From Cladocopium goreaui (lineage: Eukaryota; Sar; Dinophyceae; Suessiales; Symbiodiniaceae), in assembly GCA_947184155.2 (NCBI GenBank), contig CAMXCT020006423.1, forward strand, positions 248,001-312,000: 64,000 nucleotides of DNA. Direction: 5' to 3'. Under the pieces are notes generated by a model. That model did no database searches. It was not told the DNA's origin and saw nothing but the letters and a program-made list of their open reading frames with translations. The stretch's first letter is position 1. Each line of letters opens with the position of its first letter. Position numbers and translations under genes: made by a program. Of this stretch, positions 5,558-61,943 are shown one piece after another.

Positions 5558-6246
5558 TGAACTTAAACCCTAAAACCTTAAAACCCTAAATCCAAAAAAC
5601 CCTAAACCCTAAACCCTAAAACCTTAAAACCCTAAACCCTAAAACCCAAAACCCAAAACCCTAAAACCCAAAACCCAAAACCCTAAAACCTTAAAACCCT
5701 AAATCCAAAAAACCCTAAACCCTAAAACCCTAAAACCTTAAAACCCTAAACCCTAAAACCCAAAACCCTAAACCCTAAAACCCAAAACCCAAAACCCTAA
5801 AACCTTAAAACCCTAAAACCCTAAACCCTAAAACCCTAAAACCTTAAAACCCTAAATCCAAAACCCTAAACCCTAAAACACTAAACCCTAAAACCCAAAA
5901 TCCAAAACCCTAAAACCCAAAACCCTAAAACCCAAAATCCTAAAACATTAAAACCCTAAATCCAAAAAACCTTAAACCCTAAAACCCTAAATCCAAAAAA
6001 CCCTAAACCCTAAACCCTAAAACCTTAAAACCCTAAACCCTAAAACCCAAAACCCTAAACCCTAAAACCCAAAACCCAAAACCCTAAAACCTTAAAACCC
6101 TAAATCCAAAAAACCCTAAACCCTAAAACCCTAAAACCTTAAAACCCTAAATCCAAAACCCTAAACCCTAAACCCTAAAACCCAAAACCCTAAAACCCAA
6201 AACCCAAAACCCTAAAACCCAAAACCCTAAAACCCAAAACCCTAAA
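5558..6246. repeat. Interstitial telomere-like array, CCCTAAA type
   Basis: About 690 nt of CCCTAAA, CCCTAAAA, CCTTAAAA and CCCAAAA units, the C-rich strand of a TTTAGGG-like repeat. The units are imperfect and sub-blocks such as AACCTTAAAACCCTAAATCC recur, indicating internal duplication. Ordinary sequence lies on both sides, so it is not a chromosome end in this assembly. TTTAGGG is the telomere motif reported for dinoflagellates and plants. Confidence 0.9.
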
Positions 6247-18216: not shown

Positions 18217-18376
18217 ACTGTGAATTCCTGGGCTACTGATTTGGCAGTGGAATTGAAGAGAGGGGGAGGGAGGGAGGTGTTGAGAATCCTGACACGTCCT
18301 TGGTCAGAAGACTCAAGCACACCAAGTGAAATACAAGGAAAACCGACAGGGAGGAACAAAAGAAGGACAAACAAAC

Positions 18377-28980: not shown

Positions 28981-31800
28981 TGGTAGTCCTTAAATAAAGA
29001 GTTTGAATTTAGATCATGGCATTGTGGAAGGCAAGGGGGGGAAGTTTAAATCAAGAATTAGATTTTAGATCATGGCATTGTGGAAGGCAAGGGGGGGAAG
29101 TTTAAATAAAGAGTTAGGTTTTAGATCATGGCATAGTGGAAGGCAAGGGGGGGAAGTTTAAATAAAGAGTTAGATTTTAGATTATGGCATAGTGGATGGC
29201 AAGGGATGGCAAGGGAAGGCAAGTTTAAGTAAAGAGGTAGATTTTAGATCATGGCATTGTGGAAGGCAAGGGGGGGAAAGTTTAAATAAAGAATTCGATT
29301 TTAGATCATGGCATTGTGGAAGGCAAGGAGGGGAAGTTTAAATAAAGACTTAGAATTTAGATCACGGCATTGTGGAAGGCAAGGGGGGGAAGTTTAAATA
29401 AAGAGTTTGGTTTTAGATCATGGCATAGTGGAAGGCAAGGGGGGGAAGTTTAAATAAAGAGTTAGGTTTTAGATTGTGGCATAGTGGATGGCAAGGGAAG
29501 GGAAGTTTGAATAAAGAGGTAGATTTTAGATCATGGCATTGTGGAAGGCAAGGGAGGGAAAAGTTTAAATAAAGAAGTCGATTTTAGATCATGGCATTGT
29601 GGAAAGGCAAGGGGGGGAAAAGTTTAAATAAAGAATTCGATTTTAGATCATGGCATTGTGGAAAGGCAAGGGGGGGAACTTTAAATAAAGACTTAGAATT
29701 TAGATCATGGCAAGATTTTAGATTATGGCATAGTGGATGGCAAGGAGAGGGAAGTTTGAATAAAGAGGTAGATTTTAGATCATGGCATTGTGGAAGGCAA
29801 GGGGGGGAAACGTTTAAATAAAGAATTCGATTTTAGATCATGGCATTGTGGAAAGGCAAGGGGGGGAACTTTAAATAAAGACTTAGAATTTAGATCATGG
29901 CATTGGAAGGCAAGGGGGGGAAGTTTAAATAAAGAGTTAGGTTTTAGATCATGGCATTGTGGAAAGGCAAGGGGGGGAACTTTAAATAAAGACTTAGAAT
30001 TTATATCTCGTCCAAGCTGCCAAAAGATATATTCTCAGAACAAGCATGGAAAGAATAAAATATGGCCCATCCTGGTCGCAGGCTCTTGTGCAGACCGATC
30101 TCCACGTTGAAGAAGTTGTAGCATGGTGGTAGTCCTTAAATAAAGAGTTTGAATTTAGATCATGGCATTGTGGAAGGCAAGGGGGGGAAGTTTAAATCAA
30201 GAATTAGATTCTAGATCATGGCATTGTGGAAGGCAAGGGGGGGAAGTTTAAATAAAGAGTTAGGTTTTAGATCATGGCATAGTGGAAGGCAAGGGGGGGA
30301 AGTTTAAATAAAGAGTTAGATTTTAGATTATGGCATAGTGGATGGCAAGGGAAGGCAAGTTTAAGTAAAGAGGTAGATTTTAGATCATGGCATTGTGGAA
30401 GGCAGGGGGGGAAAAGTTTAAATAAAGAATTCGATTTTAGATCATGGCATTGTGGAAGGCAAGGAGGGGAAGTTTAAATAAAGACTTAGAATTTAGATCA
30501 CGGCATTGTGGAAGGCAAGGGGGGGAAGTTTAAATAAAGAGCTAGGTTTTAGATCATGGCATAGTGGAAGGCAAGGGGGGGGAAGTTTAAATAAAGAGTT
30601 AGATTTTAGATTATGGCATAGTGGATGGCAAGGGAAGGGAAGTTTGAATAAAGATGTAGATTTTAGATCATGGCATTGTGGAAGGCAAGGGGGGGAAAAG
30701 TTTAAATAAAGAATTCGATTTTAGATCATGGCATTGTGGAAAGGCAAGGGGGGGAAAGTTTAAATAAAGAATTCGATTTTAGATCATGGCATTGTGGAAA
30801 GGCAAGGGGGGGGAACTTTAAATAAAGACTTAGAATTTAGATCATGGCAAGATTTTAGATTATGGCATAGTGGATGGCAAGGGAAGGGAAGTTTGAATAA
30901 AGAGGAAGATTTTAGATCATGGCATTGTGGAAGGCAAGGGGGGGAAGCGTTTAAATAAAGAATTCGATTTTAGATCATGGCATTGTGGAAAGGCAAGGGG
31001 GGGAACTTTAAATAAAGACTTAGAATTTAGATCATGGCATTGGAAGGCAAGGGGGGGAAGTTTAAATAAAGAGTTAGGTTTTAGATCATGGCATTGTGGA
31101 AGGCAAGGGTTAGATTTTAGATTATGGCATAGTGGATGGCAAGGGAAGGGAAGTTTGAATAAAGAGGTAGATTTTAGATCATGGCATTGTGGAAGGCAAG
31201 GGGGGGAAAAGTTTAAATAAAGAATTCGATTTTAGAAAGTTTAAATAAAGAATTCGATTTGAGATCATGGCATTGTGGAAAGGCAAGGGGGGGAACTTTA
31301 AATAAAAGACTTAGAATTTAGATCATGGCAAGATTTTAGGTTATGGCATAGTGGATGGCAAGGGAAGGGAAGTTTGAATAAAGAGGTAGATTTTAGATCA
31401 TGGCATTGTGGAAGGCAAGGGAGGGAAACGTTAAAATAAAGAATTCGATTTTAGATCATGGCATTGTGGAAAGGCAAGGGGGGGGGAACTTTAAATAAAG
31501 ACTTAGAATTTAGATCATGGCATTGGAAGGCAAGGGGGGGAAGTTTAAATAAAGAGTTAGATTTGAGATCATGGCATTGTGGAAGGCAAAGGGGTGGAAG
31601 TTTAAATAAAGAGTTCGATTTTAGATCATGGCACTGTGGAAGGCAAGGGGGGGAAGTTTAAATTCTTTTTTTAGATCGTGGCATTGTGGAAGGCAAGGGG
31701 GAGGGGAAGTTTAAATAAAAATTTAGAATTTAGATCATGGCATTGTGGAAGGCAAGGGAGGGGAAGTTTAAACAAAAATTCAGAATTTAGAGCATGGCAT
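28981..31800. repeat. 2.8-kb array of a ~57-nt unit with higher-order duplication
   Basis: About 48 units of GTTTAAATAAAGAGTTAGAT-TTTAGATCATGGCATTGTGG-AAGGCAAGGGGGGGAA, with variants in the G run and the AGAGTT/AGAATTC/AGACTT positions. A non-repeat marker of about 140 nt (CTCGTCCAAGCTGCCAAAAG ... GTAGCATGGTGGTAGTCC) occurs at 28861 and again at 30007. The order of unit variants after it is also repeated. A segment of about 1,145 nt has therefore been duplicated in tandem. ORFs such as WKARGGSLNKE repeats are by-products. Confidence 0.9.
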
Positions 31801-31919
31801 TGTGGAAGGCAGGGAGGGGGGCGCAAGTGAATAGGCTGGGGGGCGCTATTGGAGGCGCAAGTGATCGGTTTGAGGCGCAAGTGATCAGGCGGCGCAACCC
31901 TCTCAAAAGCCTTTCTCAA

Positions 31920-45022: not shown

Positions 45023-45054
<32 letters not shown>

Positions 45055-46065
45055 AATGTACATATATACATATATACATATATACATATATACATATATA
45101 CTTATATACATATATACATATTTACATATATACATATATACATATATACATGTATACATGTATACATGTATACATGTATACATATATACATATATACAAA
45201 TATACATATATACATATATACATATATACATATATACATATATACATATATACTTATATACAAATATACATATTTACATTTATACATATATACATATATA
45301 CATATATACATGTATACATGTATACATATATACATATATACATATATACATATATACATATATACACATATACACATATACACATATACACATATACATA
45401 TATACATATATACATATATACATATATACATATTTACATAGATACATATATACATATATACATATATACATATATACATATATATATACATATATACAAA
45501 TATACATATATACATATATACATATATACATATATACAATATACATATATACTTATATACATATATACATATTTACATATATACATATATACATATATAC
45601 ATATATACATGTATACATGTATACATGTATACATATATACATATATACATATATACATATATACATATATACATATATACACATATACACATATACATAT
45701 ATACACATATACTTATATACATATATACATATATACATATATACATACATACATATTTACATAGATACATATATACATATATACATATATACATATATAC
45801 ACATATACACATATACACATATACATATATACATATTTGCATATATACATATATACATATATACATATATACATATATACATTTATACATTTATACATAT
45901 ATACATATATACATATATACATATATACATATATACATATATACATATATAGATATATACATGCACATATACATGTACATATACATATACATGTATACAT
46001 GTATACATATACGTATACGTATACATATACATATGCAATATGAATATGTACAATTGATGATTTGG
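44990..46065. repeat. (ACATATAT)n microsatellite, ~1.07 kb
   Basis: Almost pure 8-nt ACATATAT units with ACATGTAT, ACTTATAT, ACACATAT and AGATATAT variants. The long Tyr/Ile/His ORFs over it have no biological support. 46066-47010 holds no supported gene. Confidence 0.95.
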
Positions 46066-49854: not shown

Positions 49855-50530
49855 GGGGCATTTTGTAGTTGCAAGAAACCCCCTAACCAGGGCATTTTGT
49901 AACAAAACACCTAAAAGGCAAAATTGTACATTTTGAAGTCTTCATTTTGTAAGAGTTTTGAGGGGCCAACTCATTTTATCAGACCATCGACTTTGTTTTT
50001 TTGAGGCTTTTTGTATGGTCAATGTGCTGTTATTAAACATCAAAAAACTCAGCACGGTGTGCAATGACATTTTGTAAGGAGATGTCGTCAAGAGTAGGAG
50101 AACCATGTTGTAAGAATATATGATTTTAAGGCATTGATACAAATTGTTGTTCAAATTTGTACATGTTTTTGATTTGACTCAATCATACTCAATCATCAGG
50201 AGTTCTGGCAGGCAATGATGCCAAAGAACAAAAATACAAAAGGTGGCAAAAAAAAGGAATCCTTAAATAAAGGCTGCTTGAGAATCAACGAGGCCGGGAA
50301 AAAAAACAGGGAACCAGAAGTTGTTGCCTTACAAAATGATACCCAAAAACGCTATCTGAAATCACAACATCCTATAAAAAGGTCATTGAGTGGGATGCAA
50401 CATTCATATCATGAAAAAAGTTGTCACCTTACAAAATGATGACGGATTTTAGAGTCGAATGTGGGTGCTAAAAACCTATGTTTTTTGTAAGGGCCAAAAT
50501 TCCCAAAAACCGATCCATTTTATAAGGATT
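49855..50530. repeat. Dispersed CATTTTGTAAG motif, about ten copies, both strands
   Basis: CATTTTGTA(A/G) or its complement CTTACAAAATG occurs near 49858, 49890, 49928, 49944, 50067, 50106, 50330, 50432, 50485 and 50515. It lies in otherwise unique AT-rich sequence. The block ends 45 nt before repeat A1 of the retrotransposon. Confidence 0.5.
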
Positions 50531-50575
50531 TCAAAATCCCACCGATTTATGCTTGCAAGAAGCCGGGTCCGACCC

Positions 50576-50670
50576 GTGGTTTGTACTTGTACATAGTTGT
50601 TCACAGGTAGGACCCGGAACTTCATCGGTCCGTTGCCGTTTTGCTTCAAGCTTGCATATCGTATTTCTCC
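50576..50670 (+). repeat. Split direct repeat A1
   Basis: 95 nt starting GTGGTTTGTACTTGTACATAG and ending CATATCGTATTTCTCC. Identical by eye to A2 at 61333-61427. It forms the left end of the retrotransposon. Confidence 0.9.
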
Positions 50671-50855
50671 ATGGCTGTCCAGTCCAGGCGTTGTTTGGAC
50701 AAAGGGCAGGCTGCATTGCATCGACCTGTGGTTCTTCATCCACCACCGGTGCATCTGCCCAAGTGGTCTATTGGTGCCTTCTGTTCTGGTTTTGCACTGG
50801 GTGTGGCTTTTGCCTCGGTTTCCTTTTTCTGGTGGTTGTCATCACTGTGATTATC

Positions 50856-51365
50856 ATGAATGCTCCTCGTCGTGTTCTTCCTCAGGAGATCCGTTTTACG
50901 TTGGAGTTCCAACCTGGTGCACCTTTCCAGCAGTCTATCATCAATTCAATCATGGCTCCATTCAACCTGGATCAATTGGACTGCAGCATTAATGAGATCA
51001 TCTACCCCACTGCTTGGCCGATTGGCTTCGGAGGCGACCCTGACCTCATCGACCTTCCTACTCACTGGGTACCTTGGGACGACGACATTGTTTCTACATC
51101 CCAGTACCATTTCTATGTCGCTGACCTCGAAGTGTACGAATCCATGGCTGCCGTGGCAACTGCAACAGACAATCATCTTTCTATGGTACCTGCAGGTGTC
51201 CCCTTTGACTTCCGCATGGAGACCATTTTGATTGTGCACCAGTTGCCATTGATGCAACTCATGGAGCTTGCGGCCCAGTCAGCTGACAGGATCATTACCT
51301 TGGAACGACGTCTGGGTGACGCTGAGGCAGCCATTGCACAGATCCGTTTCCATCTTGGTATTTGA
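50856..51365 (+). CDS. Retrotransposon ORF1, unknown, coiled-coil C terminus
   Basis: 169 codons from ATG 50856 (MNAPRRVLPQ...). The frame is open further upstream but has no ATG there. The N-terminal 120 residues look like a mixed alpha/beta fold with many Pro, Trp and Asp residues ('PTAWPIGFGGDPDLIDLPTH'). The last 40 ('SADRIITLERRLGDAEAAIA') have a heptad pattern for a short coiled coil. No known domain. ORF1 and ORF3 share this layout of globular head plus C-terminal coiled coil, so they may be structural (Gag-like) proteins. That role is inference. Confidence 0.5.
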   Translation: MNAPRRVLPQEIRFTLEFQPGAPFQQSIINSIMAPFNLDQLDCSINEIIYPTAWPIGFGGDPDLIDLPTHWVPWDDDIVSTSQYHFYVADLEVYESMAAVATATDNHLSMVPAGVPFDFRMETILIVHQLPLMQLMELAAQSADRIITLERRLGDAEAAIAQIRFHLGI

Positions 51366-51594
51366 AGCACCTGCCATTCCTGTCCTGTTTACTTTTCGGG
51401 TGGCTGGCTTCTTCGGATATTTGCTTGGACCTTCAATCTTGGCAGTTCAAAAGTGCATGTGCTGTTTTTGGGTGGCCGCTGCCTTCCACTCATGTTTCCG
51501 TTGATGTCATTTCCATGATGCACCGCTGTGCTTTCGTTTATCTTGCCCGCCTGGCAGCTTTCGGCTCGAATAACCCGATCTGGTTGTTCTGGCC

Positions 51595-52218
51595 ATGTCC
51601 CACCGTACCCCATTGCGCGGTCTGAGGGATGCCATGTTTGATAGCTCAGATTGGAGGTTGTCCTTGGAATATCTTGTTCCAGGATCTTTACCTCCACCTG
51701 TGGTGGAATCTTGCTCTGTGACATTTCCACCTGGTTTCTCATTGTACCAGGTGTCACAAATGCTGGAGCATGGTGGGCACCATCGTTGCAGAGTTCATGG
51801 TATTCATATTGCCCTCTATTCACCAGCCAGTCCTTCCGAAGCGGTTACAGCCCCACCTGATTTCGGCTCTCCAGCTGCCATTGAGGAGACGATGGACGCA
51901 GATGATGCAGACTCAGAGCAGGGTACAGGCAACTCTCAAAACGATGGATCGGTATTGGACCTCGCAAGGTCTGTTTCCACTCATAGGCTGACGTCTAATG
52001 AGATGCATGCCCTTGACCACCTGGCTCTGCAAATTCATCAGAGGCTGGAAGCTTCGCGTTCAGTCCCTCACCATTCAGCTGAGTATGCCCGTGGGTCATG
52101 GCTGATGACCAGAGCTTACTTAGCCCGTGCTTTGGAGGACACATTGGCCAACCCATCGACGCTTGGTGGTGCAGCATCTTCTGATCCCCTGGGACTTGGG
52201 GACCCTGGCCTTAACTGA
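51595..52218 (+). CDS. Retrotransposon ORF2, unknown
   Basis: 207 codons, ATG at 51595 to TGA at 52218. A basic start (MSHRTPLRGLRD) is followed by a Pro-rich globular part and an acidic stretch ('EETMDADDADSEQGTGNSQN'). A helical segment ('NEMHALDHLALQIHQRLEAS') follows, then an Ala/Gly-rich tail. No motif recognised. It is separated from ORF1 by 230 nt of T-rich spacer. Such spacers could hold trans-splicing acceptor sites, the normal way dinoflagellates resolve multi-gene transcripts, but I cannot prove that here. Confidence 0.45.
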   Translation: MSHRTPLRGLRDAMFDSSDWRLSLEYLVPGSLPPPVVESCSVTFPPGFSLYQVSQMLEHGGHHRCRVHGIHIALYSPASPSEAVTAPPDFGSPAAIEETMDADDADSEQGTGNSQNDGSVLDLARSVSTHRLTSNEMHALDHLALQIHQRLEASRSVPHHSAEYARGSWLMTRAYLARALEDTLANPSTLGGAASSDPLGLGDPGLN

Positions 52219-52555
52219 CGGTGTGCTGCTGTACTGACCTTTTTGCTCATGCATGATACCGCCGCTGTCATTTGGACATCAATTGTCTATTTATATGTGA
52301 CCGCGCCCGTGTCACACTGCATTGGGTCTTATAGTCTCAGCTCACATCAAGCAGTGGCTGATATTTTCAACGCTCATATCTGACATCGCATGTCGGAGGA
52401 AAAAGAGTGCCCTTTTGCGTATTTCAATTCGATTTTCAATTCCATGTTGTTGCACTGAGCCGTCATTTTCACTTCTGTCCATTTTCTTCATTGGTCATTT
52501 CGCAGTTTGGCAGTGGGCTCAAACGGGGCATTTATTCCAGTCCGTACTGGCTGCG

Positions 52556-53146
52556 ATGCAGGGGCTGCAGTTGTCGTATCCCCCGGCCCAATTCACCTTT
52601 CAGATTACCTTCGGTTCAGATTCGGTGGTGCCAATTGAGCGACTCTTCCGGTTCTTTGCCCTGGAATCTTTGGTGTTGGACCCTGGGAGGACACTTTTTC
52701 CTCTTCAAGTTCCTCGTGACCTGGAGGTCGACGTGACCCCATCGCAGTGGCGCAAGTATAAGCCAGACTGGGAATCGGCCTTTAATGAGGATTACGAGTA
52801 CATCGTCTTCCTGCCAGAGGGCCTGTACGCACAAGTCTACACCCATATGACTCGTGCCTTCCCCGATCACATAGTCCAATGCCACGGAGATGGACGTGTT
52901 GCCAAGGTGGACGTTCGGGTGAAGCCAATGGCATTTGCCGACTTGGCTGATGCCCTTTACCAGGTGCAGTCAGAAGTTGACTCTCTCCATGCTGAGGTTG
53001 CGAAGATGCGGCGATGCCAGGACTTGTTGTTCCACAATCTTGCAACCATCACAAAAGACTGGATGGAGGTCAATCCTGAACTTGCTGACCGTCTTCATCC
53101 ATCGACGCCCCAGTCCTGGATTGCACCACGATCAGAAGAAGATTGA
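52556..53146 (+). CDS. Retrotransposon ORF3, unknown, coiled-coil C terminus
   Basis: 196 codons from ATG 52556 (MQGLQLSYPPAQ...). The frame is open from 52322, but the upstream part is Cys/Phe/Ser-rich and looks non-coding. The head contains 'FTFQITFGSDSVVPIERLFR' and 'EYIVFLPEGLYAQVYTHMTR'. Near the end 'ADALYQVQSEVDSLHAEVAK' is a clear coiled coil. The layout resembles ORF1 despite no obvious sequence identity. Function unknown. Confidence 0.5.
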   Translation: MQGLQLSYPPAQFTFQITFGSDSVVPIERLFRFFALESLVLDPGRTLFPLQVPRDLEVDVTPSQWRKYKPDWESAFNEDYEYIVFLPEGLYAQVYTHMTRAFPDHIVQCHGDGRVAKVDVRVKPMAFADLADALYQVQSEVDSLHAEVAKMRRCQDLLFHNLATITKDWMEVNPELADRLHPSTPQSWIAPRSEED

Positions 53147-53425
53147 CGACAGTCCTTGGACATGGCGACGGTTTTGACTTTGTGCCCATCTGGACCACGC
53201 CTGGTCAATTTTTTGTCTCGGATCATTTTCGGCAGACAACAGCTCTGCTCACATTTCACCATCTGTGCTTGGCAAAAGGCTGTGTGGACCGGTGTTTGTT
53301 CCATTGTCTATCCGCTGATAGCCAACATGCATTGCCTATGCTTGCACTCAGGTGTCACATTTTTCACTTCTTTGGCTTGCTGGCATTTCTGGTTCAAACC
53401 TTTTTGACCCGCCGGTCTCGTAGTC

Positions 53426-55510
53426 ATGGATCCCCCTTTGGAGCTACTGGGTGACCATACTATTTTGCCTGGGTCAGGTTGTGGCAGAGGCATTTCCATT
53501 TTCCAGCCTAATAGACCTGCTCCGTCTGAACCCTTGTTTAGAGTCAAACGGTGGAGACGTGAACCGGCTCAGAGTTACGTTGACCCATCTCCAAAAGCTT
53601 CGGCGACATCTTACAAGTCTGTTTTAAACAGGTGGGATGGTCAAGGACTTGGCGCACACTACAAATCATATAGCAATGGACCCCTCTACATTGGTGGCCT
53701 GCAGCCACCTCCAATGAGACCTCGTCGGGAAGTGGAGTGGGATGCACATCCTCCAGGTCTGCAGTATGTTCCACCATCGACATTGGGTGTCCACGCGCGG
53801 TCTTATCAGTGTCAGCTCAATCATGATCGCCCTATGTCAGCAGGATGTGCATCTATCGTTCAAATGCAGCCGCACAGTTCTTCAATTTTCCTGTCTGGTG
53901 TCCTTGATGTGCCTTCAAATGTTGTGAAAGCTTCGATAGCAGATTCCACTACAATGCATGCCTTACATCAGCAGCTGAGAACCCAACACCACATTGATTG
54001 GCTTCAGCTTCTGAAACAGGCTGGTTCCAACAGCGAGCTCATCAAGTCCACGCAGGACAGCCCCAACCAAGAAGCTCACTTGATCAAGGTTGTTGCGAAG
54101 TTTGCACCGTCTACTTTAGCGGCATATCTCAAGGGCTGGTCACAGTGGGTGGAGTTTTGTCATTGCCATCAGGTATGTCCTTACAGCCCGCCGACAGTTT
54201 TCCTTGCAGATTTTCTCCAGGTGTCCTCTAAGAGGAGTTCACTGGGTGTTGCCACGGCGCAATCGCGAGCTCTCACGTGGGTCTCGAAGTATGCTGGGTT
54301 CCCGGCACTCTTGGGGTCCTTACAGGCGCCGATTACTCGGGCTTACACAATTCCATCAGAGATCTCTGTCAGGAAAGAAGCCGCCCCACTGCCGTTGAGC
54401 TTTGTTGTGTACTTGGAGTCCTGCATTCTTAAGGAGCTGGGCACAGCTGCGGACAGGTTACTGATGGGCTCACTGCTTGTTTTGATCTGGTCATCTCTGC
54501 GGTGGAGTGACGCACTTTGGGTTACCCCAAGTGCACTCACAGAGGACGTTGATGTTATCCGAGGCATCGCAGTCCGTACCAAGACGACGTCACGCGGAAT
54601 GCCATTTGCGTTCGTCAAGTCAGGGCTCTTGGCCACATCGACACAGGTCACTTGGTCTATGAAGTGGCTCAACTTGGTGCGTCAAGCACTGCAACGGACA
54701 GCGGAAGTATTTCCGGATTTCACTCCAGATTTCTTGCTGCCCATGTGTGGGCCGAATGTGGATAACCCCATGTTCACGGCACCCATGCCTCGGACACAAG
54801 GAGTCTTGCTGTTGAGACGACTTCTCTTGCAGTCCAACAAAGATGCGTCTGTCTTGAGTATCGGCGTGCACTCCCCGAAGGTAACTTTACTTAGTTGGGC
54901 ACGACAAATTGGAGCGTCAGAGGAAGCCAGAATGGCCCAGGGCCATCATCGCCAGTCAGGCGCTCGCTCCAACGTGGCCTTGTACGGCCGGGACGACGTA
55001 CATCCAGCTATACAGTTACAGTACCAGATCATTCAGCGCATTGCTTCAGGTTTCAGGCCAGTGATTCCACTTCTTCGTGGTGGTGCTAAACCTGTTTTGG
55101 ACAAACCAGTATCCGTGGCCCCACCCTCAGAGGAAGTCACATCACAGGCTCAGACACAATTGTGCCTCCCCCATTCTGATGACTTGGCCGACACCGACTC
55201 TGGTGAGTCTGATGCTGGGGCGGCGCCTGAGCTTCAGGATGACACAGAGGTTCCAGTGATCCAAGCAGCCTCAGCTGATTGTCTCTTTCTTTTGAATACA
55301 ACGTCATCAATTGCTCATGTGGCCGCTGTATGCGATGAATCTGATACTTACAGGGTGGTAACAGTGGATGCTGGGGAAGTGCGAAAATCGTTCAAGTTTG
55401 CTTGCAATGTCCGTCGTGCAGCCTGGGATGCTGAAATTATTCCAGCTGAAACATTCCCAGAAAAATTTAGGCTGTGCATGAGACCAGCCTGCTCTAAGAT
55501 GTTTGACTGA
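53426..55510 (+). CDS. Tyrosine recombinase of the retrotransposon
   Basis: 694 codons. The N-terminal 170 residues are Pro/Arg-rich. Residues 220-310 ('FAPSTLAAYLKGWSQWVEFC', 'PTVFLADFL') form a SAM-like core-binding domain. The catalytic domain shows R359 ('SSLRWSDAL'), a beta-hairpin Lys near 386 ('VRTKTTSRG'), H482-S-P-K485 in 'GVHSPKVTLLSWARQIG', H507/H508 ('QGHHRQ') and Y520 ('ALYGRDDV'). This is the R-H-x-x-(R/K)-H-Y set of tyrosine recombinases, with Lys at the second Arg position, also known in some YR retroelements and Cryptons. About 170 residues follow the tyrosine and include an acidic region ('DDLADTDSGESDAGA'). The enzyme would integrate the circular cDNA. It lies upstream of the RT, whereas in DIRS-1 and Ngaro it is downstream. 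Confidence 0.85.
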   Translation: MDPPLELLGDHTILPGSGCGRGISIFQPNRPAPSEPLFRVKRWRREPAQSYVDPSPKASATSYKSVLNRWDGQGLGAHYKSYSNGPLYIGGLQPPPMRPRREVEWDAHPPGLQYVPPSTLGVHARSYQCQLNHDRPMSAGCASIVQMQPHSSSIFLSGVLDVPSNVVKASIADSTTMHALHQQLRTQHHIDWLQLLKQAGSNSELIKSTQDSPNQEAHLIKVVAKFAPSTLAAYLKGWSQWVEFCHCHQVCPYSPPTVFLADFLQVSSKRSSLGVATAQSRALTWVSKYAGFPALLGSLQAPITRAYTIPSEISVRKEAAPLPLSFVVYLESCILKELGTAADRLLMGSLLVLIWSSLRWSDALWVTPSALTEDVDVIRGIAVRTKTTSRGMPFAFVKSGLLATSTQVTWSMKWLNLVRQALQRTAEVFPDFTPDFLLPMCGPNVDNPMFTAPMPRTQGVLLLRRLLLQSNKDASVLSIGVHSPKVTLLSWARQIGASEEARMAQGHHRQSGARSNVALYGRDDVHPAIQLQYQIIQRIASGFRPVIPLLRGGAKPVLDKPVSVAPPSEEVTSQAQTQLCLPHSDDLADTDSGESDAGAAPELQDDTEVPVIQAASADCLFLLNTTSSIAHVAAVCDESDTYRVVTVDAGEVRKSFKFACNVRRAAWDAEIIPAETFPEKFRLCMRPACSKMFD

Positions 55511-55720
55511 GCGCGGACTTGGCATGTCAAAACAGTGCAGTCACGATATCAGTGCATCCCGCTGCGTGCACTTGTGACATTTTTGGTACCCATTTTTCCA
55601 TTGGTACCATTGCACGGGTCTCATTTTCCGCATATCTTTCAGCACATGTGTCCATATATTTTCTTATATATACGTTGTACCCTGCCAGCCATTTTTGTCT
55701 CGAGGTGCCGCTTGCCACCC

Positions 55721-56248
55721 ATGACTGACTTCGCTAAGTTAGAGGCTATGGTGAACTCTGCACTCCCCTTTGTCAGGGAGTGGGCTTCAGATGATCATCA
55801 CAGGGCACACCTTGAAGTTTGCTTGGCGGGATGTGCAGCAGTGGCGAAGCATCTGGCATCCAGATTCCATTGGACGCTCATCTCAGTCCTCTGCTCACTG
55901 GCTGCGAAGGTGTTGATTACTCAGGATGAGGCCCAAGCGGACCTAGCTCCATCTGGGTGGATCCCTGACAGGACGCATCCCTGTTCAGTTATCACCTTCA
56001 CTTTAGCTTTGCCCGTTGAGCAGGCGCATCTTTTGGTTTTCCAGCTCTCCGGAGCCCTTTCAGTGGTCACGGAGTGGGGCCTATCTAGCTCCCCACTGTT
56101 GACCCCGGAGGATCACTTGGTCTTCCGCCACCTTCGATCGATGCTTTTCGACTTGATTACAGCTGTGCGTCTTGGAGCTGGAGGTCAGGCCGCTGACCGG
56201 CTGATGGAGGAGCTACCTAGTCTTAGCCAGCCTGCCGCGCAAGAGTGA
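55721..56248 (+). CDS. Retrotransposon ORF5, unknown helical protein
   Basis: 175 codons from ATG 55721 (MTDFAKLEAMVNSAL...). Mostly alpha-helical by composition, with conserved-looking Trp and Cys ('REWASDDHHRAHLEVCLAGC', 'WTLISVLCSLAAKVLI') and a C-terminal helix rich in Leu ('RHLRSMLFDLITAVRLGAGG'). No motif recognised. The frame is open upstream from 55535 without a better start. It sits between the recombinase and the Gag-like ORF. The 385 nt after it (56249-56632) are non-coding. Confidence 0.45.
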   Translation: MTDFAKLEAMVNSALPFVREWASDDHHRAHLEVCLAGCAAVAKHLASRFHWTLISVLCSLAAKVLITQDEAQADLAPSGWIPDRTHPCSVITFTLALPVEQAHLLVFQLSGALSVVTEWGLSSSPLLTPEDHLVFRHLRSMLFDLITAVRLGAGGQAADRLMEELPSLSQPAAQE

Positions 56249-56632
56249 CCCATGCATTCATCTGCCTTGGATCAAAAGGGGCGGTATTGCTGAGTTTATC
56301 CCAGTCATGTCCTGGGATGATTTAGTGTGCTTGGGTTTTTGCCACGCTTGGCTACCCTTGTACGGGTTCCTTGCTTGCACCTGGCTTTTTGACTCGCAGT
56401 CAGTTTGGCTCAGGTCTAGGGTCCAGCCACGCTTGGCTAAATTTATCAATCTACTGGTAGTCAGTTTAGGTTCATGATCCACGCGGGATTGTACTATGTC
56501 CATCAATTTATGCCACATTTCACTGACTGTTTTTGGTCAGATCCATGTTCACATGTGTTTACATTACCTCGGCCTATTCTGTAGTTTCAGTGATTGCTTT
56601 CTGTCGTCCAAGTGTCGGTGGGGCGTTCAGAC

Positions 56633-57834
56633 ATGGCTTCACAATCTATGGCCTTAGATGATCCTGTGTCTTTTAGATCGTTGATGGCTGACTGCCACAT
56701 GCCATCGATTCAGATTGAACACATTTTTCATGCTGGGTACACGACGATTGCACTCCTTGCCCATGGAATTCACGATGAATCCAAGATGGAGGAGTTTGTT
56801 GAACACTTGAGTGTGATTCCAGATGGTGAGACTTTTCAGACATTCTCCCTGCAGTCAGCAGCGATCAGAAGGGTCCTCAAGGAGTGCATTGCGAAGTGTG
56901 TGCTGTCAGGACGTGATACTCCCATTGATGCCCCTACAGCACCACCCACTAAGACACGTTTGTCGGTGGCAGATGTCAAAGCACTCAAAACAGAGTTTTG
57001 CCAGAACTATCCAGGTGAGTTGTTGCTGCCCGGGACTATGCCGTCTTTGTCCTTTCTGTGCACCCTCAAGGACGCGATTGACACCAACAACTTCACCTGG
57101 ATTCCATGGAAAAGCAGGACATCTGAAGCAGATGAACAAGCGTTTGCTGAACATCGCAGACCCAGGAATGATCGCCAACTGCTTCGCTCACTGCTCACTG
57201 AAGGTGACTCAGTTCTCAATGAACAGCCTGAAGCAGTCATCAATCACCAAGCCCCTACAGAAGTTGTTTTGGCCAAGTTCCAAACCTTTTATCTGTTGCT
57301 TTGGCTATGTTGGGCTCTGCGCACCTGGCTTTGGCAAAACCACGAGATCAGCACCTGCGTGCCCCATCGTTGTCGGAAATTTTGGATGCTGACAGGGTTG
57401 CATGGTCCGCTGTCACAGACCTGCTATATGAGTCGAAGTGGACACTCAATGATGTCCTCAATGAAGTGGCCTTCTGCAGGCAGGTTTTTCATACCTCCTT
57501 GGCACCTCGTCCTCGTCCGGTACAACAACCGAAGCAGGATCCGCCCAAGCGCAGACCTGATCTTCCAAAGCCGCTTCCCAAGAAGCCCAAGACCGCCAGC
57601 CCAGGTAACGACTCACCCAAACAGCCGAAGCCTGACACCAAGGAATTGAAATGGGACAATGCTTGGCTTCGCAAATTGCCTGACGGAAAAGGGATCTGTA
57701 TGCGCTTCAATTTGAATAAGTGCAAGTCTGGTAAGACTTGTCGCTTTGCTCACCAATGCCCAGTACCGAAGGCCAATGGAGAACCGTGTGGAGGTTTTCA
57801 TACAGCAGCCCGACACAAGTCGGCACCACACTGA
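56633..57834 (+). CDS. Gag-like ORF with CCCH zinc finger, -1 frame break
   Basis: Starts at ATG 56633 (MASQSMALDD...). The first frame is protein-like to about 57290 ('PTEVVLAKFQTF'). Coding then continues in the -1 frame ('ALAMLGSAHLALAKPRDQHL') to TGA at 57832-57834. The C-terminal part is Pro/Lys-rich (RPVQQPKQDPPKRRPD) and ends in a CCCH finger with spacing C-x7-C-x5-C-x3-H ('CMRFNLNKC', 'TCRFAH'). Such fingers bind RNA, and a nucleocapsid role is likely. The frame break may be a mutation or a frameshift site; no classic slippery heptamer is evident at 57280-57300. The final frame is the same as that of the polyprotein, from which only the TGA divides it. Confidence 0.6.
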
Positions 57835-57837
57835 CCA

Positions 57838-60800
57838 TTGCAGCAGGAAAGCGATAATTCAGTTCCTCCACAACAGTTGCAGGACCTGGCTGAGTCATTG
57901 GAGCCACCCGATTCTGTTCATACAGCATCGAAGGTAGAAGTCTCCCGTGCACCTTCTCAGAATTCTGGCATTTTCGAACAACTTGCATCGTGTTCTGCTC
58001 CCAAATTTTTTCTTGACATTTTTGCCGGGGCGACCATGCCAGTGAGTATGGCCCTTGTCCCATTTGCATGTGATCGTGTCGAACCGGTGGACCTTATTCA
58101 TGGCCATGACTTGCTGGATGACAGCGTCTTCGAAGCAGTGCTTCTTTTGGCAGCATCAGGTATGATTGGGGCAGCATTGGCTGCGCCTTATTGTAGCAAA
58201 CACAGCAGGGCTACTCTTCGTCCTCCAGGCCCTGCCCCTGTCAGAACGCCAGAGTTTATTGATGGCCTTCCCTCCAACTCTCCGTTACAGCAACTGGCAG
58301 TTGAAGAAAGTGCTGCTATCCACGACAGATCGCGCATTTTATTGTCAGAGGTTGACAAAAAGGGGGGGTTGGCCATTTTGGAAAATCCCGCCACATCGAT
58401 GACATGGGACGACCCTCTCATGGTCCAGTGGGTCCACACTGTGGCTCCGTTTGCGGCCCAAGCCTCTGCTTGCCAGTTTGGCAAAGACTGGGCAAAAGCT
58501 TGGATGTTCGTGGCCAACAGACCTGACATTTTTGCACTTGCCAAATCTTGCCCTCATGGAGCAAATGTACATCAACAGATCGCGGGAGTCCGGATGTCAG
58601 ATGGGTCATTCCTCAGTCGCATCACTGCTGAATATCCGCCTGATCTGGCTCATGCCTTGGCATTGATCATTGCCCCTTACGTCACCAAGAACTCCATGGT
58701 TTTGCCCATTGACAACTGGCAAGCGGCGCTCCCTCAATCACTCAAGTGGCCACGCCTGCCTACGCGTGTCGAAGATGGAGGAGGGCTTAATAGCACAGCC
58801 GCTCACATGCTCAGACCATCCCATGACAAGCTGGCGTCATTGCGATCCCGTTGGTTTCGAAGGTTGAGTGATACCAAACACTGTTTCAAGATCACAGCTT
58901 CTTTGACATCAGGTTGCAAACACCCACCCCTTTCGGATGTGGACCTACAACCTTACATCGATGACATGTTGGAAGTGCTTGATTGTCCTCCTGGTGATCA
59001 CCTTCTTCACATTCCTCCTGGACAACCGTTTCGGCTCTACCTCTGGCACACTTTGGCGCAGTCTTTGTCTGACCCTGATGCTGATTTCCTCTTGGACCTT
59101 GTGAAGGGTGTTCCCTTGGGTGTCAATGAGTCACTCAAACCCTCACCATCTTGGCAAGTTCATGATGGTGTGGTTTCTGACCCTGAACCATTATTGGTGT
59201 GGCATGACTCGTGGAAGAGCGCAGCTGATCACCCTGCCATTGTGGAGGACCTGATCAAAGAAGAACTTGCAGCTGGTTTCATAGCTTTAGTTCCTGGCGG
59301 CGTACCTGAACTCCAGAAACAGTTTCAGCGGACTGCTGTGGGCAAGTTGGGTGTCGTGATTTCTGAAGGCAGATCACCTCGGCTGGTCGTGGATAGCTCC
59401 ATCAGCAACGTGACTGCCAATACTGTGATCCCTAACCACATGACTCTCCCACGCATCTCTGATGTTATGGAATGCGCACCTGACTCTATGGCCAGACAGC
59501 AGATGATTCAACTTACACTGGATGTGTCAAAAGCGCACCGCCGCATCCTCATTGATCCTAAGGATGGTGGCATGCTGTGTTTCCATGCCAACGGGAAACT
59601 GTACCGTTGCATCACGTTGAACTTCGGTGCACGCGCCAGTGGTTGGTACTGGGGCAGGGTCGCCGGATTGATGGTCCGCACAAGCCACGCACTCCTTGCC
59701 CATGGTCACGCATTGTGGCAGTATGTTGATGACTTGCTGGCATGGCTTGATCGCATCTCATCTCCTTTGTGGGCATCACTCTTGGTCGTGCTGTTTCTCA
59801 TCTTGGGTATTCCCATGTCATGGCATAAGGCATCATTGGACGTTGAGGTGGACTGGATCGGATGGCGTATCTCTGTTCTGACGTGGTCCATCTCCATCCC
59901 CGAGGAGAAAATCTCGCGCATTGTACAACAGCTGCGCAAGTTTGGGGACTGCACCAAAGTGCCACTTAAAGACATGCAGTCCATTGTGGGTCGCTTGCTT
60001 TGGCTCACATCGGGATGGCATTTCCTCAGGCCTTTGCTCATCCCACTGTACAAGGCTATGCACCACATCCCTACAACCATGGTGGGCATGGACCATGTCA
60101 CATACCAACATTTCCTGGGTGAACTGTCACCGCAACTCACACTTACAACTGGCTTTACTCACAGACATCAGTCTCTTTGCCAACAAGTCAGGTTAGTGAG
60201 AGTGGCGAACACGAATGTGCACACCTTGGATGATGCAGCCAAGCTACACATCAAATCCCGACGCATTTGGGTGGGCATTCAGGATCCCACATCACCCATG
60301 CGTACATTGGATGATGAGGCCAAAGAAGCCATGAGCCTATGGGAGAAACTCCTTGTGTCTACCCCTTTTTCGCTGTCTATGTCACCAGCTACCTTTTTGG
60401 ACATCACCGCCACAGCAGACGCAATGGCATCTCAATCTCTTGCTGGCTTTGGGGGGGCAGCGATGTTTCCCAATGGCGTTTGGGTGTGGTTTCAATTCCA
60501 AATCACGCTCTCTGAAGCTCAAGCGTTGTGGCCTTGGGTCGGGTCGGACATGCAGAAGCACATTGCTGCATGGGAACTCCTGGCACAGTTTGCACTGACG
60601 TTCTGCATTGAATCTGCACTCCCTCGTGGTCGCGGTCCTGTTGCCTGCCAACAAGGGACAGACAACAGTGCAGCTGATGCAGCATCAGCGAAAGGACTCT
60701 CCATGACACCTGCGGTCTCTACAGTTCTGGCTCCATATTACAGGTTCATGCGACGCTACCATGTGTTTCCAAGATTGACCCATGTCCCTGGTCATCTGAA

Positions 60801-61158
60801 TACTATTGCGGACTCGTTGAGTCGATTCAAGCAGCCCCTTCCTGAACCACTGACAGTGAGCAACCACTGTCCAGTGCGGTGGCAGGTGCTCCTTGCGTCT
60901 TCTCCAGTCTGCATTGCTCAGTCTGGCCGGAAATGGCCGTCCAAATTTGGCATTGACGTAAAAAAGCGCTGCGGCAGTCCGCTGACTGTGGGTTCCCTCA
61001 ATCGATTCCTTTTTGGGGGAGTTTGCGACTCCGGCTGGTCGATTTTCGACTTTCTTTGGTGCATTTCCAAACTCCCCACCTGTTCAACCAGATTACTACC
61101 CCGGTTCTTGGGTATGCACCTCTGGCTTGTCGTTTTGTGTTGGGGGGTTACAAATTGA
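57838..61158 (+). CDS. Polyprotein: methyltransferase-like, reverse transcriptase, RNase H
   Basis: 1,106 codons, in the same frame as the preceding CCCH ORF after TGA-CCA. There is no ATG before residue 67, so expression by read-through or fusion is likely. Residues 57-285 resemble a cytosine methyltransferase fold: 'FFLDIFAGA' (motif I), 'AAPYCSKHS' (motif IV with Cys119), 'LAILENPATS' (motif VI) and 'CQFGKDWAKAW'. Reverse transcriptase spans about 470-740. It has 'LVVDSSISNV', D562 in 'LTLDVSKAH', 'LNFGARASGWYW' and the catalytic YVDD (629-632). RNase H spans about 852-1000, with D861, E913, D942 and 'HVPGHLNTIADSLSR' (D992). This RT-RH arrangement with H-x-P-G-x-x-N-x-x-A-D-x-L-S-R is typical of DIRS-type elements. 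The last 35 codons lie in repeat B1. Confidence 0.85.
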   Translation: MQQESDNSVPPQQLQDLAESLEPPDSVHTASKVEVSRAPSQNSGIFEQLASCSAPKFFLDIFAGATMPVSMALVPFACDRVEPVDLIHGHDLLDDSVFEAVLLLAASGMIGAALAAPYCSKHSRATLRPPGPAPVRTPEFIDGLPSNSPLQQLAVEESAAIHDRSRILLSEVDKKGGLAILENPATSMTWDDPLMVQWVHTVAPFAAQASACQFGKDWAKAWMFVANRPDIFALAKSCPHGANVHQQIAGVRMSDGSFLSRITAEYPPDLAHALALIIAPYVTKNSMVLPIDNWQAALPQSLKWPRLPTRVEDGGGLNSTAAHMLRPSHDKLASLRSRWFRRLSDTKHCFKITASLTSGCKHPPLSDVDLQPYIDDMLEVLDCPPGDHLLHIPPGQPFRLYLWHTLAQSLSDPDADFLLDLVKGVPLGVNESLKPSPSWQVHDGVVSDPEPLLVWHDSWKSAADHPAIVEDLIKEELAAGFIALVPGGVPELQKQFQRTAVGKLGVVISEGRSPRLVVDSSISNVTANTVIPNHMTLPRISDVMECAPDSMARQQMIQLTLDVSKAHRRILIDPKDGGMLCFHANGKLYRCITLNFGARASGWYWGRVAGLMVRTSHALLAHGHALWQYVDDLLAWLDRISSPLWASLLVVLFLILGIPMSWHKASLDVEVDWIGWRISVLTWSISIPEEKISRIVQQLRKFGDCTKVPLKDMQSIVGRLLWLTSGWHFLRPLLIPLYKAMHHIPTTMVGMDHVTYQHFLGELSPQLTLTTGFTHRHQSLCQQVRLVRVANTNVHTLDDAAKLHIKSRRIWVGIQDPTSPMRTLDDEAKEAMSLWEKLLVSTPFSLSMSPATFLDITATADAMASQSLAGFGGAAMFPNGVWVWFQFQITLSEAQALWPWVGSDMQKHIAAWELLAQFALTFCIESALPRGRGPVACQQGTDNSAADAASAKGLSMTPAVSTVLAPYYRFMRRYHVFPRLTHVPGHLNTIADSLSRFKQPLPEPLTVSNHCPVRWQVLLASSPVCIAQSGRKWPSKFGIDVKKRCGSPLTVGSLNRFLFGGVCDSGWSIFDFLWCISKLPTCSTRLLPRFLGMHLWLVVLCWGVTN

Positions 61159-61332
61159 TCTTGTGGTCTGTACATGTGTCAACCCGCTGGTATCAAATTA
61201 GTGTACAGCCCCCTTCGAGATCATTTTGCACCACGCTGAAAAATAGGGAGCCCCAGCAGCTGCTGCTTTGTGTTATGCACTTTCATGTACTTGACATATG
61301 TAAGTTGAAGCAACGGAAGCTGAACTGTGAAC
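61058..61332 (+). repeat. Split direct repeat B1
   Basis: 275 nt from GGTGCATTTCCAAACTCCCC to GAAGCTGAACTGTGAAC. Matches B2 (61481-61755) except at about three positions (for example GGTATGCACC against GGTATGTACC). The polyprotein stop (61158) lies inside it. Confidence 0.9.
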
Positions 61333-61427
61333 GTGGTTTGTACTTGTACATAGTTGTTCACAGGTAGGACCCGGAACTTCATCGGTCCGTTGCCGTTTTG
61401 CTTCAAGCTTGCATATCGTATTTCTCC
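61333..61427 (+). repeat. Split direct repeat A2
   Basis: 95-nt copy of A1, directly abutting B1 with no spacer. Followed by a 53-nt spacer (61428-61480) containing a hairpin CCACCGT-x11-ACGGTGG (61447-61471). Confidence 0.9.
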
Positions 61428-61480
61428 CCTCCACCATCCCCTTGCTCCACCGTCCGTGGACTTTACGGTGGTGAGTAGGG

Positions 61481-61755
61481 GGTGCATTTCCAAACTCCCC
61501 ACCTGTTCAACCAGATTACTACCCCGGTTCTTGGGTATGTACCTCTGGCTTGTCGTTTTGTGTTGGGGGGTTACAAATTGATCTTGTGGTCTGTACATGT
61601 GTCAACCCGCTGGTATCAAATTAGTGTCCAGCCCCCTTCGAGATCATTTTGCACCACGCTGAAAAATAGGGAACCCCAGCAGCTGCTGCTTTGTGTTATG
61701 CACTTTCATGTACTTGACATATGTAAGTTGAAGCAACGGAAGCTGAACTGTGAAC
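61481..61755 (+). repeat. Split direct repeat B2 (right end)
   Basis: 275 nt, second copy of B1, ending ...CTGAACTGTGAAC. Sequence after it (CTTCCAAATTCGAACC) is not repeated elsewhere in the window and is taken as host DNA. Confidence 0.9.
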
Positions 61756-61943
61756 CTTCCAAATTCGAACCCGGATGATTCGATGATTTTCTCATTAAAG
61801 AAACTATTTTTAGGGATTTCTTATTGCCATCTTCAATGATGTTCCAGACGTTTCTTGGGTAGTGCATCTTGTTGCTGCTGCTGCTGCTTGCTGTCAAGGC
61901 CTGTGGCAGAAACGGGGCGAAACGGTAGCTGGTAGCCGACGCA

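Follow-up and report, generated by a model that had tools for sequence, protein, structure and literature searches.

A probable tyrosine-recombinase retrotransposon with split direct repeats and four additional conserved genes in the dinoflagellate Cladocopium goreaui

Retrotransposons with a tyrosine recombinase (YR) are generally described with three long open reading frames (ORFs), and those of the VIPER elements are listed as Gag-like, YR and reverse transcriptase/RNase H (RT/RH) (passages of PMC6681497). PAT, Toc, Kangaroo and Ngaro elements also combine RT-RH with a YR. Split direct repeats are known from PAT and Ngaro, and a zinc-finger Gag from Pat1 (excerpts of PMC4157794, PMC3266345, PMC3783388). 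DIRS-like elements were reported from Symbiodinium by de Mendoza et al. in 2018. According to the main text of that paper (PMC5890265), these SymbioDIRS elements have A-coding-B-A-B repeats, encode the YR in an ORF of its own and come in two architectures between which the order of YR and Pol is shuffled. Here, we examine a stretch of 64,000 nucleotides from Cladocopium goreaui (GenBank assembly GCA_947184155.2, contig CAMXCT020006423.1, positions 248,001 to 312,000), hereafter the window, whose numbering is used throughout. Its positions 50575-61755 are most probably a near-complete YR retrotransposon with split direct repeats.

Taken as a whole, the locus is best explained as a low-copy YR retrotransposon of the DIRS order with a SymbioDIRS-like backbone, supplemented by a module of ORF1-3 and by ORF5. 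We assign this reading a probability of roughly 0.82. The backbone order would be A - YR - Gag - Pol - B-A-B, of a kind already reported from Symbiodinium. With SymbioDIRS-Dnmt3 and the DIRS elements devoid of a DNA methyltransferase (DNMT), the element has in common the host group, the A-coding-B-A-B repeats, a YR ORF separate from an RT-RNase H Pol, the order of these two being shuffled between forms, and a divergent RT poorly matched by Pfam (PMC5890265, main text). Compared by description with SymbioDIRS, it differs in having no recognisable DNMT, four further conserved genes and an in-frame stop between gag and pol. VIPER and TATE likewise have Gag-like, YR and RT/RH ORFs, with A1 at the 5′ end and B1-A2-B2 at the 3′ end. 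Those elements have three ORFs, the first of them Gag (passages of PMC6681497); in the present element three other genes come first and the zinc-finger gene lies between YR and Pol. Among the other groups, Kangaroo differs by its inverted YR, and the DIRS group including PAT by a Dam-like methyltransferase (excerpts of PMC4157794, PMC3266345, PMC3783388).

A first-pass annotation of this DNA had regarded the recombinase-before-RT order as new and the element as a possible undescribed lineage. The order is not novel, since a shuffled YR and Pol has been in print since the Symbiodinium report of 2018 (PMC5890265, main text) and VIPER is listed as Gag-like, YR, RT/RH (passages of PMC6681497). Within the literature searched, what stands of the lineage claim concerns only the four extra conserved and selected genes, which are the new part; for the gene order it falls. 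In the parts of the main text of PMC5890265 that were read or searched, we found no description of further conserved genes, and the words 'gag', 'capsid' and 'readthrough' are absent. The features of the element are given below; relatives are named by handles such as C1501.

50575..50670, + strand: A1, left terminal repeat; 96 nt, 100% identical to A2; edge in agreement with the empty-site comparison
50526-51365, + strand: frame of ORF1, conserved part from the ATG, 50856..51365; 12 aligned copies; C-terminal part coiled-coil-like by eye
51574-52218, + strand: frame of ORF2, listed part 51595..52218; relatives in C1501 and C3035
52301-53146, + strand: frame of ORF3, listed part 52556..53146; 14 aligned copies; weak coiled-coil matches at the C-terminus
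53408..55510, + strand: YR, 700 aa, assigned from its catalytic motif pattern; catalytic residues R365 (54500), K392 (54581), H488 (54869), K491 (54878), H513 (54944) and Y526 (54983)
55511-56248, + strand: frame of ORF5, conserved part from Met, 55721..56248; 15 aligned copies
56594..57834, + strand: ORF6, Gag-like; frames 56594-57649 and 57232-57834 overlap, with a frame change in the window copy
57832..57834, + strand: in-frame TGA that separates ORF6 from Pol, within CAC-TGA-CC; readthrough predicted
57835..61158, + strand: Pol; conserved N-terminal domain (about aa 57-300), RT (YVDD near aa 630) and RNase H-like C-terminal part
61058..61332, + strand: B1; 275 nt, 98.9% identical to B2
61332..61427, + strand: A2; 96 nt, 100% identical to A1; its joint with B1 (B1|A2) presumably corresponds to the junction of the circle
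61481..61755, + strand: B2, right terminal repeat; 275 nt, 98.9% identical to B1

The element is bounded by A1 and B2, its right end holds B1-A2-B2, and all its ORFs lie on the + strand. This A1...B1-A2-B2 arrangement corresponds to the split direct repeats of the PAT/Ngaro/VIPER type. It was present in five of the seven elements read as contiguous stretches (the window's, C662, C3035, C1501 and C5842) and was not seen in C1533 and C89, the latter containing a long N run. In all five, B1 passes directly into A2; in the window one base is shared. The A and B sequences vary from family to family, while paired repeats inside one element are 90-100% identical (A and B: 100% and 99.6% in C3035, 98% and 99.6% in C1501, 90% and 95% in C5842). 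Such a pattern is expected if reverse transcription remakes the repeats. An inverted repeat surrounds the B1|A2 joint: GTGAAC precedes it, and GTTCAC lies some 23 bases inside A. Between these arms, the window, C662, C3035 and C1501 carry the palindrome TGTACTTGTACA; C5842 retains only the outer AGTGAAC/GTTCACT. We infer that a two-armed core site for the YR would have this appearance.

In the recombinase, the six catalytic positions R-K-H-K-H-Y are invariant across all 14 YRs of the alignment, the most distant of which share 24-28% identity. Pol combines RT with RNase H, as in the DIRS order. The RT is recognised by the Pfam model RVT_1 in 6 of the 18 Pol members, at best with 2.2e-7, though not in the window copy, and the RNase H is assigned from conserved motifs only. 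Pol ends shortly past the RNase H region, inside B1, and its N-terminal part is strongly conserved. PHROGs matches for the YR were dismissed as chance hits. Viral contigs were searched for relatives of Pol, YR, ORF3 and ORF5 and none was confirmed.

Further copies were sought in the genome (1.166 Gb in 6202 contigs), with counts across search listings made by reading. The YR protein gave at least 66 matches: seven at 88-100% identity, about a dozen at 55-60% and others at about 40% and 31-33%. Pol gave at least 48 matches on 40 contigs. The lists comprise the best 64 of 2166 YR candidates and the best 42 of 3900 Pol candidates scored, and a contig without a YR row among the matches listed is no evidence of YR absence. 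Both genes are among the matches listed on 24 of the 40 Pol contigs; the other 16, with no YR row among those matches, are uninformative. YR lies 5′ of Pol on the same strand in 22 of the 24, spaced by 2.2 to 4.7 kb in 21 and by 11.5 kb in C2016. The exceptions are C94, where the Pol match is followed 8.4 kb further downstream by a YR of a 33% family, and C713, with YR and Pol more than 50 kb apart on opposite strands. YR and Pol co-diverge: their identities correlate with r=0.985 (36 pairs from nine copies; 2 of 5000 permutations as high). A 29-mer of A, allowing up to three mismatches, occurs at 44 places in the genome (control 0), and A-repeat pairs lie 10.47-10.80 kb apart on five contigs. 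Near-identical copy pairs, e.g. C738/C5162 and C4757/C5868, may reflect duplicated assembly or recent duplications. The first-pass description of a YR retrotransposon with split direct repeats, seven ORFs and the recombinase upstream of RT is borne out by these data, if the two ORF6 frames are counted as one gene. Its proviso that RT and YR might never co-occur does not apply.

The A-repeat 29-mers also form tandem arrays at steps of 432-433 bp, some about twice that (C906:140286-142045, C1450:10721-13769, C5365:15232-17424), and at 423 bp steps in C2906. These look like stacked A-spacer-B units, such as might arise if the YR joined short circles by crossover at their B|A joints. The wider YR family is huge: two of its members, used as queries, gave 2166 and 1994 candidates at first look, and many of the scored ones have intact frames of 640-900 aa. 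Its machinery may consequently matter for dinoflagellate genome structure. In C6057, an open frame of 2250 aa from about 137984 has a related YR near its start in the first part, which was the part examined, and is possibly a YR-Pol fusion.

Insertion was analysed with the window's two 300-base flanks joined as a query for empty sites. Besides the window's own flanks, 38 other matches were obtained: 21 cross the junction by at least 18 bases and 17 end within 5 bases of it. The element thus sits in a dispersed repeat. The eight junction-crossing copies examined all read through into AAATTCGAACCCGG, or nearly so, with no duplication. C-run lengths and single bases at the junction differ between the window and the empty sites, and within this C-run uncertainty the window insertion has no visible target duplication. 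None was seen in the flanks of C3035, C1501 and C5842 either, beyond one ambiguous base. Insertion without target-site duplication is again in line with the DIRS order. The element sits near the end of the dispersed repeat (window 50275-50574 and 61756-61776), an end which carries CCGGGT...TTCGAACCCGG and is possibly box-B-like.

Relatives carry the four additional genes too, and purifying selection acts on these genes as it does on YR and Pol. The dN/dS ratios were obtained by the Nei-Gojobori method for pairs with dS 0.05-1.2, with 95% bootstrap bounds; pairs share history and are not independent. The set comprises ORF1, ORF2, ORF3, YR, ORF5 and Pol. Median dN/dS is 0.14 for ORF1 (upper bound below 1 in 17/17 pairs), 0.07 for ORF2 (20/21, from partial sequences except the window's), 0.12 for ORF3 (30/31) and 0.07 for ORF5 (26/26). 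The corresponding values are 0.13 for YR (all 19 pairs), 0.07 for Pol (9/9) and 0.07 for the Pol N-terminal part (all 13 pairs). In the relatives C1501 and C3035, whose YRs are 55 and 58% identical to that of the window, the four genes keep the same order and strand at 39 and 33% (ORF1), 32 and 34% (ORF2), 41 and 40% (ORF3) and 49 and 50% identity (ORF5). Hence the earlier observation that four additional ORFs are kept open is confirmed, and they are not independent insertions, as that annotation had allowed for.

ORF1 and ORF3 are probably paralogues, as judged from a profile alignment of their shallow alignments (hhalign probability 83, P 8.9e-6); profile comparison gave no homology of ORF5 to either. 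For ORF1/ORF3 and ORF5, the solved-structure search returned just weak coiled-coil or chance matches and Pfam weak matches only. ORF1-3 and ORF5 are most likely structural, particle or nucleic-acid-handling proteins. A distant relative, C5842 (35% YR identity, 9037 bp), has the same YR-Gag-Pol backbone with YR immediately after A1. ORF1-3 and ORF5 were not found in it by tblastn at 1e-3, and a 185-aa frame occupies the place expected for ORF5. ORF1-3 were not detected in C89 either. The lack of a match in C5842 points to a gain of the three genes in the clade of the window's element or to their loss in that of C5842. ORF1 also has a large family of more distant members in the genome, to which 45 of its 71 matches belong, mostly at 21-34% identity (e.g. 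C6048:878519-878941 and C602:217323-217745), many of them in open frames of 185-293 aa.

ORF6 has a homologue in C662 with a single 426-aa frame, which indicates that its two frames are one gene broken in the window copy. A C-terminal CCCH zinc finger at about 57688-57771 matches zf-CCCH (E 0.01) and related Pfam models, all below the curated cut-off. The ORF6 frame runs on into Pol across one TGA, and the context CAC-TGA-CC is found in all 17 copies showing the junction, the most divergent of which have a Pol 46-47% identical to that of the window (an 18th row, C4077, starts inside Pol and is excluded). The nucleotide following this stop is C throughout (17/17), and it is mixed at the stops of ORF1, ORF2, ORF3, YR and ORF5. 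Of 16 copies, 12 have their first Pol Met beyond the conserved FFLDIF, at residue 60, 68 or 113, and 4 have it ahead of that motif. For the segment ahead of the first Met, dN/dS is below 1 in 97 of 108 pairs. On the simplest reading, these sequences predict that readthrough yields a Gag-Pol fusion. In yeast, UGA-C is the UGA tetranucleotide with most readthrough, and UGA-CCG has been used as a reporter context (parts of PMC4446449). A literature search combining stop codon readthrough, gag-pol, tyrosine recombinase and retrotransposon found no paper. The conserved UGA-C junction is a concrete and cheap readthrough test case in the YR class.

Several observations speak against the account given so far. 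The YR assignment is motif-based, for want of a homology match: integrase models matched none of the 19 YR proteins scanned (13 + 6), and the comparison with solved structures gave no match. Its second box moreover reads H-x-x-K, where tyrosine recombinases usually have H-x-x-R. The Pol N-terminal domain has no homology match, solved structures included. Between the window and C512, dS is 0.49 for Pol and 0.20 for YR, so that the copies are mosaics and the gene set is not wholly one descending block. Relatives of ORF1 and ORF5 also occur on contigs without a listed YR or Pol row, and some of the 53 genome matches to ORF5, at 36-37% and 22-24%, are on contigs without a listed YR row. At the gag/pol junction, the segment ahead of the first Met is weakly constrained (median dN/dS 0.55, up to 1.49), and no convincing RNA structure was found after the UGA (eight weak pairs, starting about 60 columns downstream). 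TGA is also the usual stop of ORF2 (13/13 copies), ORF3 (16/16), ORF5 (17/17) and YR (14/15), though less so of ORF1 (5/12), and by itself is therefore weak evidence for readthrough.

The stop might indeed not be read through, Gag and Pol being separate proteins made by reinitiation, a non-AUG start or trans-splicing. Dinoflagellates trans-splice mRNAs, and a 21-mer which we take to be the dinoflagellate spliced leader has 172 exact copies in the genome (reversed control 0), in keeping with the dinoflagellate host proposed initially. The frequent TGA stops and the early Met in a quarter of the copies (4/16) fit separate proteins as well. The frame and stop context kept in every junction copy, even the most divergent, and the missing Met before FFLDIF in the other 12 copies argue the other way and make separate synthesis rather unlikely. 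Similarly doubtful is the proposal that the element is a divergent SymbioDIRS-Dnmt3 copy, its Pol N-terminal domain being a drifted cytosine methyltransferase and ORF1-3 and ORF5 being present, unannotated, in all such elements. Host group, repeats, separate YR ORF and the two known architectures would suit it. So would the N-domain motifs FLDIF(S/A)GA, AAPYCSKHS and LENPxTS, which, read in the alignment, stand in a methylase-like order and presumably recall C5-methylase (cytosine methylase) motifs. Published SymbioDIRS transcripts cover the 5′ region and not Pol or the recombinase (PMC5890265, main text), and ORF1-3 occupy that region here; the bias would fit ORF1-3 being the transcribed part, when both data sets are put together. 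Profile searches disagree with the drifted methyltransferase. PF00145 has no match in 18 Pol members or 17 N-domains, and among its matches listed (best 123 of 2685 candidates) no genome place lies inside a listed Pol copy. Against a profile of four DNMTs from the same genome, the N-domain reaches a probability of 0.25%, whereas that profile matches solved methylases at 1.4e-36. A methyltransferase in the Pol N-terminus was accordingly rejected as a resemblance of motifs, unsupported by Pfam, solved structures and profile comparison, and Pol has no recognisable Dnmt3-type DNMT domain. Nor was a Dam-like methyltransferase of the PAT/DIRS1-like kind found after the RNase H, no methyltransferase family being matched in the 18 Pol members.

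In a composite element, ORF1-3 and possibly ORF5 would belong to other elements, from which they were captured or with which they travel as mere passengers. The distant ORF1 family, the failure to detect ORF1-3 in C5842 and C89 and the mosaic copies are compatible with such an origin. The ORF3 search gave 33 matches on 30 contigs, 8 of which have weak matches and no YR or Pol row among the matches listed. The strongest matches are on the other 22 contigs, each with a listed YR or Pol next to ORF3. Together with the order and strand kept in C1501 and C3035 and a selection equal to that on YR and Pol, this makes mere carriage highly improbable.

For a YR retrotransposon with genes of its own, the following cycle can be proposed. 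The genomic RNA would be packaged by the zinc-finger Gag-like protein, and Pol would be produced as a Gag-Pol fusion through readthrough of the single leaky UGA-C. Pol would then copy the RNA; with the help of B1-A2-B2, both ends would be restored and a circle closed, in which the B|A junction is identical to the B1|A2 joint inside the element. Recombination of this junction with the target by the YR would leave no target duplication. In this lineage, the three-gene 5′ module (ORF1, ORF2, ORF3) and ORF5 would provide accessory proteins needed for spread. Being under the same selection as the polymerase, the four extra genes do something for the element. A more far-reaching picture, that of a virus-like YR lineage with seven genes, four selected accessory proteins (the ORF1/ORF3 duplicate pair, ORF2 and ORF5), a readthrough Gag-Pol and recombinase-inserted circles, is rather unlikely. 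YR retrotransposons are poorly understood, and the extra genes offer a well-delimited set of targets to structure prediction and assays.

Elsewhere in the window, positions 5565-6246 hold about 90 copies of a AAACCCTA-like unit, which is telomere-like and contig-internal. An uninterrupted 922-aa frame occupies 15535-18303 on the minus strand. A 57-bp satellite of about 50 copies extends over 28990-31820, and a (ATATACAT)n array of about 122 units over 45040-46011.

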